Assembly (NCBI RefSeq): GCF_000194605.1
Contig: NC_015321.1
Location: 3,038,001 to 3,102,000, forward strand
DNA length: 64,000 nucleotides
Origin: Fluviicola taffensis DSM 16823
Lineage (GTDB): Bacteria > Bacteroidota > Bacteroidia > Flavobacteriales_D > Crocinitomicaceae
Direction of reading: 5' to 3'
Position 1 is the first letter of the stretch. Each line of letters begins with the position of its first letter. A model generated the notes under the pieces. That model was not told the DNA's origin, searched no databases, and saw nothing but the letters and a program-made list of their open reading frames with translations. The translations under genes were made by a program, and so were the position numbers. Positions 537-4,374 of this stretch are shown one piece after another.

Positions 537-2654
537 TTACCTCACCAGCGTCACATGTCCATAAATTTCCTTGGATACAACATCGGTGTTAGATGCCATT
601 GTAATCACCCAGTTATACACTCCTGTGGGAGCTTGAATTCCGTTAACTGTTCCATCCCATCCATCTCTGGCCGATTTCCCCGACCAGACTACTTCTCCCC
701 AACGGTTATAAATTGTGAATTCTCTGACTAATCCCAAGTAATCGACAGGTTTGAAAACTGGATTGAACTCGTTACCGTCAGGCGTAAATGCATTGGGAAC
801 ATAAATAAGATCATCGGGTTTAAAGGCAATTATCTTTTTCTCGTCACTGCAGCCGTCCGAATTTGTGACGGTTAGTGAAACCGTTAATGGCTGAAAAAAA
901 TCTACCATCGTATACGTGAATTGCGGCGCTGTAGAAACGAGTAAATCGTTTACTTTCCAGGACCAGTCAGTGATGTTTCCAGTAGATTGGTCTGTAAATA
1001 TGTTTGGAATGAATGGTTTAATTGGAGTTGGTTCAATGGAGAAATTAGCTATTGGAACAGGAAATGCCTCTGCAAGAATCGCTACTGAATCTTCGACCAA
1101 GCAATCGTTTGAACTGATTGCCTTCAATGAAATTGGATAAATTCCAGGCGTTGTATAGGTAAATTCGGCATTTTGTGTGTGAATACTGGTTCCATTTCCC
1201 AGATCCCAAATCCACTCCGTAATAGTTGAAGGGCTTATTCCTGTTAATTGAATGGTGAATGGTGCACACCCTGAAGTATCACCAACTAAGTGACTAATCT
1301 GTGTTGTATCGGTTGAAATCGTAATGGTATCTGTTGTTGTTAGGCAAGATTCCACTTGGTACTGAACCCAGTATGTTCCTGGTTGGGAAACTTGAAGTGT
1401 GGGATTTGTACTGCCATCCGACCACAGATAAGTGGCACCTGGAACATTGGATAAACTGTTCGAAAGTGTGACATTAGTTTCAGGGCATAGTGAAATATCT
1501 GGTCCTAGTTCTAATGGAGAAGGCATCAAATACTCTGGATTGTAATACCAAGGCAGTCCGAATGTTGCCGAAGTACCAAGCGAAACCGCATTTTCCACAT
1601 AACCACAGTTTGTTCCCAGTAATTCAGGATTTGAGATAACTCCAAGAAAATCAACAGCGGGCCAAGCGTTGTAATTAATATAGATTTTATCGTTTGGTGC
1701 TATTTGAATTTGACCCATTTCTCCTTGAGATGTTAGGAACTGACCAACAGGGGTTCGTGTAGCAGGAATATTTGGAGCCGTCATATCGTACTGAAAAATA
1801 CGGTTGTTTGTCATACCTGTTTCACCAGAGTATAAACGATTACCACTTCTTGAAAATTCCAAACCGTAAGGTTGACCAGGAGTAGTAGTAGATGTATACA
1901 AATTACTCATTCCCGTTGCAGCTCCCGTTGCTTTATCAAAATCGATGAGCTCTATGCTTCCCATTCCGTTATAAGGTCTGCTCAACGCAATTTTTGTTCC
2001 TTGTGGATTTGGTCGCATAATTCCTATTGCTTTTACATCTGGTTGAAGTGAAATTCCAAGATTTGATGATACGGGAGTAGGATTAATTCCTGAAGCACTT
2101 ACATGATAGGCAAGAAAAAAGTTGTTTGGGTTTGTTCCATGTGTAATAATCCAGGTATCCACACAATTTGCATGCCGCACAGCAGTGATCCATTCGCCGT
2201 TGAATGCATTCAATTGAACATTTTTAACGCTTGTGACCTCTCCAAAACCTCCTTGTAAATTCATGTCTACTTCGGAATAAGTGATTCCGTTCACACAACC
2301 GCGCTCGATAGCATCTGTTACAACAATATAGTATTTCCCAGGATTTCCAGGTTTCGGAATAATCATGCATTGAGAGCTTTTATGCCCAAGAAGTCCTGTT
2401 CCGTTTGGCATGTCTGAGTTAAACATATTCCAAACAGTTGCCCCATCTGTGTAAAATAATTTATTGCCATTTGCATCGCTTATGGAGGCGCATGATTCGA
2501 TGGAAATCATCGCATTCCCTCCAACTGTAACTGGATTTCCTGAGCTGAAGTTCAAACCACTCCCAAATCCAAAGTACCAATTCATGTGTTGATTTTGGGC
2601 GACAAGAGGCAATGTGAAAATGAGAAAACAAATAAACAATAAGGTGTGTTTCAT
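537..2654 (-). CDS. Secreted protein with PKD-type domains and a gliding-motility/T9SS type B C-terminal domain
   Basis: The 705-residue protein starts with a signal peptide (MKHTLLFICFLIFTLPLVAQ). Residues of about 25-370 resemble the beta-propeller-like N-terminal region common in Bacteroidota surface proteins. Ig-like and PKD-type segments follow at about 375-600, including the WDLGNGTS and DWSWKVND turns. The last 85 residues contain YVPNAFTPDGNEFNPVFKPV, FTIYNRWGEVVW and GWDGTVNG, the hallmark of the gliding-motility-associated C-terminal domain that directs export by the type IX secretion system (type B). It is probably a cell-surface or secreted adhesin-like protein of unknown substrate. 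It is transcribed away from the MNIO operon, with about 175 bases between their start codons. Confidence 0.85.
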   Translation of the reverse strand: MKHTLLFICFLIFTLPLVAQNQHMNWYFGFGSGLNFSSGNPVTVGGNAMISIESCASISDANGNKLFYTDGATVWNMFNSDMPNGTGLLGHKSSQCMIIPKPGNPGKYYIVVTDAIERGCVNGITYSEVDMNLQGGFGEVTSVKNVQLNAFNGEWITAVRHANCVDTWIITHGTNPNNFFLAYHVSASGINPTPVSSNLGISLQPDVKAIGIMRPNPQGTKIALSRPYNGMGSIELIDFDKATGAATGMSNLYTSTTTPGQPYGLEFSRSGNRLYSGETGMTNNRIFQYDMTAPNIPATRTPVGQFLTSQGEMGQIQIAPNDKIYINYNAWPAVDFLGVISNPELLGTNCGYVENAVSLGTSATFGLPWYYNPEYLMPSPLELGPDISLCPETNVTLSNSLSNVPGATYLWSDGSTNPTLQVSQPGTYWVQYQVESCLTTTDTITISTDTTQISHLVGDTSGCAPFTIQLTGISPSTITEWIWDLGNGTSIHTQNAEFTYTTPGIYPISLKAISSNDCLVEDSVAILAEAFPVPIANFSIEPTPIKPFIPNIFTDQSTGNITDWSWKVNDLLVSTAPQFTYTMVDFFQPLTVSLTVTNSDGCSDEKKIIAFKPDDLIYVPNAFTPDGNEFNPVFKPVDYLGLVREFTIYNRWGEVVWSGKSARDGWDGTVNGIQAPTGVYNWVITMASNTDVVSKEIYGHVTLVR

Positions 2655-2778: not shown

Positions 2779-2786
2779 TAAATTTG
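2779..2786 (+). promoter_or_regulatory. Candidate -7 box of the MNIO operon
   Basis: TAAATTTG matches the Bacteroidota -7 consensus TAnnTTTG and lies 43 bases before the first precursor ATG. No clear TTG -33 box is seen at the expected distance, so the assignment rests on one box only. Confidence 0.4.
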
Positions 2787-2829
2787 TCACTTTGGAGTTT
2801 AAGATATACCTTGAATCAAAATTTGAACT

Positions 2830-3024
2830 ATGAAACTTTCATCCACTTTATTACAAGCCATTGCTTTAGGTATTTCAGTAACAGCGGTAACGGCTGCTAC
2901 AACTTCTTGTGAGAAGCAAAAATTTAAAGAAAATAAGGAACGCAGCACTGATGCTAAATCAGGTTCAAATCCAAACACAACCCCAACAAATCCTACAGAT
3001 TGTCCGGCTTGTGGAATGGGATAA
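2830..3024 (+). CDS. Putative RiPP precursor peptide 1 (MNIO-associated, C-terminal CPACGMG)
   Basis: A 64-residue peptide. It begins MKLSSTLLQAIALGISVTAV, a hydrophobic segment that looks like a signal peptide and ends near TTSCEK. A charged, low-complexity spacer (Lys, Glu, Ser, Asn, Thr) follows, and the peptide ends NPTDCPACGMG. The gene immediately downstream encodes a second peptide with the same leader pattern and the identical last seven residues, followed by a DUF692 family enzyme. In characterised MNIO systems (methanobactin, bufferins, TglA, ChrA) such short Cys-containing peptides are the enzyme substrates, with the modified residues near the C terminus. The role as precursor is inferred from this context. 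A plain small lipoprotein is the alternative. Confidence 0.75.
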   Translation: MKLSSTLLQAIALGISVTAVTAATTSCEKQKFKENKERSTDAKSGSNPNTTPTNPTDCPACGMG

Positions 3025-3046
3025 AATTGATTTCTAATCATTTTTT

Positions 3047-3232
3047 ATGAAACTTTCTCCTTCGTTACTTCAGGCGATTTCCTTTGGTATTGCAATGAGT
3101 GCAGTTTCTTCATCTTGTCAGAAAAACGATGTAAATTCAGGAATGACTAAGAAAGAAAAGAAAGAAAACGCACGAAAAGAAAAGGAAAATCCACACAGTT
3201 ATAAAAATTGTCCAGCCTGCGGAATGGGATGA
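3047..3232 (+). CDS. Putative RiPP precursor peptide 2 (MNIO-associated, C-terminal CPACGMG)
   Basis: A 61-residue paralogue of the preceding peptide. It shares MKLSxxLLQAIxxGIxxxAV, then SSSCQK, a Lys/Glu-rich spacer (KKEKKENARKEKE) and the ending NCPACGMG. It starts 22 bases after the stop of precursor 1. Its TGA stop overlaps the ATG of the MNIO gene as ATGA (3229-3232), which suggests translational coupling between substrate and enzyme. The spacers of the two peptides differ in sequence while the leader and the last seven residues are kept. That is the pattern expected if an enzyme reads the leader and modifies the tail. The N-terminal part could equally serve as a Sec or lipoprotein export signal. 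Confidence 0.75.
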   Translation: MKLSPSLLQAISFGIAMSAVSSSCQKNDVNSGMTKKEKKENARKEKENPHSYKNCPACGMG

Positions 3233-4374
3233 GCAAAGAGCCTTTAAAAATTCAATCCGGGGTTTCCTGTAATTTGGATAATTCCCTTTTACAAGCAACA
3301 TTGCCTTTGTTTGCTGCCGAAAAAGTAGAGGCAATCGAGTGGTCTTTTGATACTTTGTATAAAGTGCGCGAGATTCCAGAGTGGTTTGTAGAATTACTTC
3401 ACGCTTTTGGAAATGAAGGAAGACTCATTGGTCATGGTGTTTATTTCTCACTTTTCTCAGGAAAATGGACTGCCGAACAACAACGATGGCTTGATCATTT
3501 GCGGAAAGTTTCATCGAATTTCACCTTCAATCACATTACCGAGCATTTTGGCTTTTTAACTGGCGAAGACTTCCACAAAGGAGCACCAATTTCTGTTCCA
3601 TACACTACTGAAACGCTCAATATCGGTATCGATCGTTTAAAACGTATTCAGGAAGCATGTTCGTGTCCTGTAGGATTGGAAAATTTGGCGTTTTCTTATT
3701 CGCTGGAAGAAGTGCAGCGCCAAGGAGAATTTTTAGAGCGATTAATTGAGCCTGTCAATGGATTTATTATTCTTGACCTACACAATTTGTATTGCCAACT
3801 TCAAAATTTTTCACTCGATTTTGAAACACTGATCCAAGCTTATCCACTCGACCGCGTGCGTGAAATCCACATTTCAGGCGGAAGTTGGGAATCATCTGGA
3901 ATTCATCCGCAACGAACGATTCGCAGAGATACGCACGATGATGCTGTTCCAGAAGCTGTTTTTGAGTTGTTGAAGCAAACACTGCCTTTGTGTAGAAATC
4001 TCCAATTTGTAGTGTTGGAACAATTGGGAGTTGCGCTTCACACATTGGAAAGTCAGCAGCAATTCCAAACCGATTTCAATCTCATGCAGTCAATTGTGAA
4101 TGAATTTAACGCCCAAAATCAATCAATTTCAAACGCCGATTTTTTACCCAAAGAAATCTTTCAGTTGAATGAGCAGATTCCCGAATCAGTGACCTTGCAT
4201 CAGCAGCAATTGGAATTATCTTCAATCTTGGAACATGCTCCAAACTATGAGGAAGCAACTCGTTTACTCAGCAATTCTTCCTTGGCATATTCTGCTTGGA
4301 AAACAGAAGCTTGGTCGCCGTATATGTTGGAAACCGCACTGAGAATTGCTCAGAAGTGGAAGCAGGGCTGGTGA
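3229..4374 (+). CDS. DUF692 family multinuclear iron-dependent oxidase (MNIO, MbnB/BufB-like) with C-terminal extension
   Basis: A 381-residue protein; the ATG at 3229 overlaps the precursor stop and is preferred over the upstream in-frame TTG at 3208. DUF692 signatures appear in order: GHGVYFSLFSG, NHITEHFGFLTGEDF, PVGLENLAFS, IILDLHNLYC, REIHISGGSW, THDDAVPEAVF and VVLEQLG. These supply the His, Glu and Asp residues that bind the two or three irons in MbnB-type enzymes. Known MNIOs oxidise Cys or other residues of a peptide substrate. The TIM-barrel core ends near residue 275, and about 100 further residues follow (ending ETALRIAQKWKQGW). These are absent from typical proteins of about 280 residues. 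No separate MbnC/BufC partner gene is present, so the extension may replace it. That is inference. Confidence 0.85.
   Translation: MSKEPLKIQSGVSCNLDNSLLQATLPLFAAEKVEAIEWSFDTLYKVREIPEWFVELLHAFGNEGRLIGHGVYFSLFSGKWTAEQQRWLDHLRKVSSNFTFNHITEHFGFLTGEDFHKGAPISVPYTTETLNIGIDRLKRIQEACSCPVGLENLAFSYSLEEVQRQGEFLERLIEPVNGFIILDLHNLYCQLQNFSLDFETLIQAYPLDRVREIHISGGSWESSGIHPQRTIRRDTHDDAVPEAVFELLKQTLPLCRNLQFVVLEQLGVALHTLESQQQFQTDFNLMQSIVNEFNAQNQSISNADFLPKEIFQLNEQIPESVTLHQQQLELSSILEHAPNYEEATRLLSNSSLAYSAWKTEAWSPYMLETALRIAQKWKQGW

Follow-up and report, generated by a model that had tools for sequence, protein, structure and literature searches.

The ChrA/ChrH pair was characterised in 2023 (Ayikpoe et al., PMC10214503), and chryseobasins are counted among the known MNIO products in a landscape paper (PMC12452194). 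DybA/DybH of Dyadobacter crusticola was described in a November 2025 preprint (Chen et al., PMC12636315), according to which Bacteroidota precursors carry an invariant third cysteine in a lipobox and a C-terminal CPxCGxG, and the adjacent MNIO, which has a C-terminal helical bundle, stands without an obvious partner protein. In the same account, the DybH product, for which a partner is not needed, differs by -4 Da and contains a thiohemiaminal macrocycle and a hydantoin; the CPACGMG tail suffices for modification by DybH, and the peptide is lipidated in E. coli. The three members tested there from Bacteroidota outside Chryseobacterium (DybA, ChsA and HymA) gave the -4 Da product, and ArlA, a further subfamily member, gave a mixture that included an S-methylated product (PMC12636315).

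The locus analysed here, from Fluviicola taffensis DSM 16823, had been put forward from its sequence as a candidate new RiPP system whose core was shared by no described member. Neither part of that claim held: NF050125 covers both peptides, ChrA (PMC10214503) and DybA (PMC12636315) have exactly the same CPACGMG, and since such operons have already been described in related bacteria, the Fluviicola operon is not a new kind of system. The main text of PMC12636315 contains neither the name Fluviicola nor the terms 'two precursor' and 'multiple precursor'.

The operon and its two precursors

The window, the whole stretch of 64,000 nucleotides that was analysed, contains the following features of the operon:

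2830..3024, + strand: precursor 1 gene, 64 aa; NF050125 50.6 bits, cut-off 40
3001..3024 (genome 3041001-3041024), + strand: precursor 1 CPACGMG core codons and stop, found by DNA pattern search
3047..3232, + strand: precursor 2 gene, 61 aa; NF050125 70.6 bits, cut-off 40
3209..3232 (genome 3041209-3041232), + strand: precursor 2 CPACGMG core codons and stop, found by DNA pattern search
3229..4374, + strand: ChrH/DybH-type MNIO gene, 381 aa; TIM barrel with the three-iron ligand set, linker and C-terminal helical domain

The layout originally noted, two tandem small genes (64 and 61 aa) with CPACGMG tails upstream of a DUF692 gene, was confirmed in the sequence, as was the overlap of the precursor 2 stop (TGA, 3230-3232) with the enzyme start (ATG at 3229). 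The proposed span, 2779-4374, is right at its end and about 50 bases early at its start; the genes occupy 2830-4374.

Precursor 1 consists of the signal peptide MKLSSTLLQAIALGISVTAVTAATTS, a lipobox cysteine (Cys27), a charged and Asn/Thr-rich spacer and the CPACGMG core; precursor 2 is built from the signal peptide MKLSPSLLQAISFGIAMSAVSSS, a lipobox cysteine (Cys24), a Lys/Glu-rich spacer and the same core. What had been read as a shared leader does have a conserved start, but it is a lipoprotein signal peptide that runs up to a lipobox (TTSC and SSSC, respectively), whose third cysteine had been overlooked. A PROSITE-like lipobox rule was satisfied by 17/17 Fluviicola precursors, and the genome has one match each to the Lgt and LspA families. 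Both peptides exceeded the cut-off of NF050125 (chryseobasin-related MNIO class RiPP peptide), and together with the PF05114 match of the enzyme, the only one in the genome, this supports the assignment to RiPP precursors and an MNIO.

The 4.63 Mb one-contig genome was searched with a degenerate DNA pattern encoding C-P-[AG]-C-G-x-G-stop, and with the reversed pattern as control. Exactly two sites were found, both beside the enzyme, and none with the reversed control; because these are the only sites in the genome, the CPACGMG tails are more than chance. The same result led us to set aside further substrates elsewhere in the genome, within the limits of a pattern that demands proline in second and alanine or glycine in third position and that variant tails escape.

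A promoter scan of the operon remained at chance level, and a terminator-like site was not found there. In a Pfam scan, the four nearest other genes encode a PKD/CHU_C protein, one protein without a Pfam match, one of SUKH type, and a small one with sub-threshold matches only. The first of these (window 537-2654, - strand), beside the operon, carries PKD repeats and a type IX secretion tail of CHU_C type, and homologues of it adjoin the operon in two relatives (L004 and L007). No SusC/SusD-type genes, which often co-occur with DybA/DybH-type clusters (PMC12636315), were seen among the nearest window genes scanned.

The MNIO enzyme and the product of the tail

The enzyme matched PF05114 with an E value of 2.7e-31, and its best NCBIfam model was NF050165 (MNIO_ChrH), at 393 bits against an equivalog cut-off of 600; that cut-off was reached by no enzyme among 100 family genomes. 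TglH is reported to bind its iron through nine ligands (PMC10880893), which a phmmer alignment places at H69, H102, E151, D183, N186, H214, D234, H236 and E264; all nine are invariant in 25/25 aligned enzymes. TglH Asn73, which has been suggested to orient the substrate cysteine (PMC10880893), corresponds in the same alignment to Val71. In an AlphaFold model built from a 25-sequence alignment (mean pLDDT 88.7), the barrel is followed by helices at residues 321-336, 340-348 and 364-378, which place a C-terminal helical domain at residues about 321-378; the solved folds nearest to this model are TglH and MbnB.

The family scores bear on the suggestion that both core cysteines are converted to copper-binding heterocycles (oxazolone-thioamide or thiooxazole) in a copper metallophore. 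Such groups are made by other MNIO families, and the models for BufB, HvfB and MbnB do match the enzyme, but more weakly: BufB at 91 bits (cut-off 310) and HvfB at 76 (cut-off 360), both below their cut-offs, and MbnB at 20, against 393 for ChrH. The UV spectrum of modified DybA is reported to lack any feature of the aromatic groups found in methanobactins or bufferins (PMC12636315), and none of the four nearest other genes scanned looks metal-handling. Because DybA receives a thiohemiaminal macrocycle and a hydantoin in place of such a chromophore, we regard the copper-binding heterocycles of the original prediction as very unlikely. Its choice of CPACGMG as the modified core fared better, the same motif being modified in the characterised homologues (PMC10214503, PMC12636315).

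An alternative is that the enzyme makes an S-methylated chryseobasin product (+10 Da) with SAM, as ChrH does, with which it has core and subfamily in common; in the later report, the +10 Da product was obtained from ChrH in the absence of ChrI, and both products from a myxobacterial homologue (PMC12636315). The window enzyme shared 59-63% identity with ten Dyadobacter enzymes and 44% with L066, which is of ChrH type. In a 32-row tree, in which L053 and L054 were entered as 269-residue pieces beginning at their first Met and 11/29 inner branches stayed open, the two enzymes above the ChrH cut-off (L066 and L067) were separated from the remaining 30 with 100/100 support. By sequence, then, the window enzyme groups with the DybH type and not with the ChrH type, and this separation, along with the -4 Da products of DybA, ChsA and HymA alike (PMC12636315), makes the methylated product an improbable outcome here. 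No match to a ChrI-type PF08592 (DUF1772) protein was found in the window genome, in keeping with the partnerless DybH type. L066 and L067 themselves have a precursor without a cysteine ahead of the core and, by eye, a hydrophobic ORF after the enzyme, a layout in keeping with a ChrA-ChrH-ChrI order.

We consider it probable (roughly 0.85) that the operon is a DybA/DybH-type, chryseobasin-related RiPP-lipoprotein operon with two precursors, the tails of which would become hydantoin macrocycles (-4 Da) and the inner cysteines of which would be lipidated. The genes, their family membership, the iron ligands, the rule-based lipobox and the Lgt and LspA genes are observed in this genome; the chemistry of the tail and the lipidation are proposed by analogy with the characterised homologues. 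In the cytoplasm, the MNIO, with its iron cluster and O2, would carry out a four-electron oxidation of each CPACGMG tail, in which the first core cysteine would be linked to the beta-carbon of the second to close a macrocycle; a hydantoin would form in the backbone that follows, and a thiohemiaminal with a free thiol would remain, for a net change of -4 Da and no methylation. The signal peptide would then feed the modified precursor into the lipoprotein pathway, where Lgt would place diacylglycerol on the inner cysteine and LspA would cut before it. The mature peptide would stay anchored in the membrane, its modified tail lying outside the cytoplasm.

Relatives and conservation of the signal peptides

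A scan of contigs from named genomes yielded 26 loci. Of these, 25 were close relatives, at 56-84% identity; the remaining one, L028, was distant (24%) and was left out. A search of DUF692 neighbours for CPACGMG-like tails, the check that had been proposed, found a CxxCGxG-tailed ORF upstream of the enzyme in 24/25 close loci, the remaining one (L009, Chitinophagales) having none in the locus DNA examined. Two such ORFs were present in 8/25 (L005, L006, L007, L008, L013, L023, L026 and L029; L008 is the same locus as L119 of G725). Ten of the 14 genomes of the window's genus matched the enzyme, nine closely (at least 73%) and one distantly (28%), and two precursors occurred in 8/9 of the close-match Fluviicola genomes, with one precursor in the other (L004/G080). 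More widely, the enzyme was matched in 18/299 genomes of an order sample, 9 of them at E <1e-60, and NF050165 was matched in 26/395 genomes of a phylum sample, with scores over 300 bits in 6 and over the cut-off in 2.

The CPxCG motif is widespread as a zinc knuckle, and on this resemblance the tails could be unmodified metal-binding cysteine pairs (the half of a zinc ribbon) on small lipoproteins, with the enzyme acting elsewhere. Against this, the tail is C-terminal, its gene lies upstream of the enzyme in 24/25 loci and joins it here by a stop/start overlap, and the exact motif was modified in experiments on homologues (PMC12636315, PMC10214503); we give the unmodified pair hardly any credence beside a modified, DybA-type tail.

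To look for a conserved helper gene, ORFs of 70 aa or longer from 34 loci were compared all against all, with the window represented by its first 12,000 bases and 8 loci by a flank of about 1.5 kb or less. Such a gene was rejected: the enzyme alone was common to all 34 loci, and the next clusters spanned at most 6. Nine cluster representatives were scanned, comprising a T9SS-tail protein, a 3-keto-disaccharide hydrolase, a phosphorylase, a TonB-dependent receptor (SusC-like), SusD, an AAA protein, a sigma factor, and two without a match above cut-off. The SusC/SusD pair was present in some Dyadobacter loci and not generally, in agreement with PMC12636315.

Several loci depart from the common arrangement. 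In L024 (Dyadobacter sp. CY312) the enzyme frame is interrupted and the precursor has no in-frame ATG, and for these reasons the cluster is perhaps decayed; it was left out of the alignment and tree. The enzyme frames of L053 and L054, from the same genus, have no ATG before about residue 110, and a GTG or TTG start is therefore probable. An order-level relative (L055, G107:C41; 292 aa, 41% identity) lacks an in-frame C-terminal helical domain; the domain may have a separate gene, an arrangement reported from Cyanobacteria. The precursors of L013, L023, L029, L036 and L069 have extra cysteines before the core (in L023 and L029, for example, as CWDC), which are possibly further modification sites or disulfides. 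L029 also contains a precursor paralogue (L029:5494-5703) with the altered tail CLDCGRG, beside one with CPGCGMG. The enzyme of L026 (CP034120.1) is 84% identical to that of the window; the record is titled Glaciecola amylolytica THG-3.7 (Gammaproteobacteria), which is probably a mislabel.

The start of the precursor signals, MK(L/I)SxxLLQA(I/V), is kept across Bacteroidota families. A pattern for it matched 30/32 lipobox precursors and, in the same loci, 0/36 of the other ORFs that resemble lipoproteins; since the precursors themselves served to define the pattern, only the latter figure is a test. Among matched genomes, signal identity was 0.69 for precursor 1 (n=9) and 0.62 for precursor 2 (n=8), against 0.58 for an ordinary lipoprotein of the window (n=9); in a 7-genome set the two precursors reached 0.80 (n=7) and 0.69 (n=6), and a second ordinary lipoprotein 0.39 (n=7); and in Dyadobacter the precursor signal stood at 0.69 (n=5; 0.73 for n=10), as compared with 0.39 for a family of ordinary lipoproteins from those five loci. 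Shared ancestry contributes to these contrasts, and they have only three controls, one of them close in absolute identity. Over the first 11 residues, the precursor sets had identities of 0.79-0.90, compared with 0.68, 0.39 and 0.40 for the controls. Signal identity divided by mature identity gave 1.02-1.46 in the precursor sets and 0.67, 0.57 and 0.51 in the three control lipoproteins, the mature parts differing in kind (a short spacer plus core as opposed to longer control proteins). Values of pN/pS were 0.32 and 0.36 in the leader, 0.48 and 0.39 in the spacer, and 0.05 and 0.02 in the core; the contrast between leader and spacer is weak because synonymous sites in the spacer are saturated.

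At the level of sequence, conservation of the precursor signal peptides equals or exceeds that of the mature part, whereas in the three ordinary lipoproteins the signal drifts faster than the mature part. This sits uneasily with the statement in PMC12636315, where the 7-residue tail was sufficient for modification, that the N-terminus is under relaxed selection, and it places a testable doubt on the published view that constraint falls on that tail only. As a tentative and rather speculative extension, the signal peptide may be more than an export signal, perhaps a second recognition element for the enzyme, for its helical domain, or for a membrane factor delaying export until the tail has been modified, and the two precursors may serve two spacer functions. 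Signal conservation could in that way bear on how modification comes before export.

Comparison with described systems

TglH and MbnB have the TIM-barrel MNIO fold in common with the Fluviicola enzyme, in which the iron ligands of TglH are conserved, but they lack the C-terminal helical bundle (PMC12636315), need partner proteins and act on other substrates. Bufferins and oxazolins (BufA/BufB, HvfA/HvfB) are likewise MNIO-modified exported peptides, some with lipoprotein signals; they differ in their cores (such as EGKCG), in their partner proteins and in their link to copper, and their enzyme models score far lower. ChrA/ChrH of Chryseobacterium is nearer, with an identical CPACGMG core and an enzyme of the same MNIO subfamily (NF050165 match). 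ChrA, however, has an SPI signal and no third cysteine (PMC12636315), whereas the Fluviicola precursors carry the lipobox cysteine, and the chryseobasin cluster includes ChrI, ChrE and ChrP and gives an S-methylated product, whereas the Fluviicola genome has no ChrI-type protein.

With DybA/DybH the Fluviicola operon shares the SPII signal, the third cysteine in the lipobox, the C-terminal CPACGMG, and an adjacent MNIO with a C-terminal helical domain and no partner protein. It differs in having two diverged precursors and other flanking genes, and the enzyme identity of 59-63% refers to ten Dyadobacter relatives, D. crusticola being outside the loci. What is somewhat new, beside the conservation of the signal peptides, is that Fluviicola keeps two distinct precursors, in 8/9 genomes with the enzyme; the lipidated chryseobasin-type RiPPs are in this way extended to Fluviicola, with a precursor pair that has been kept.
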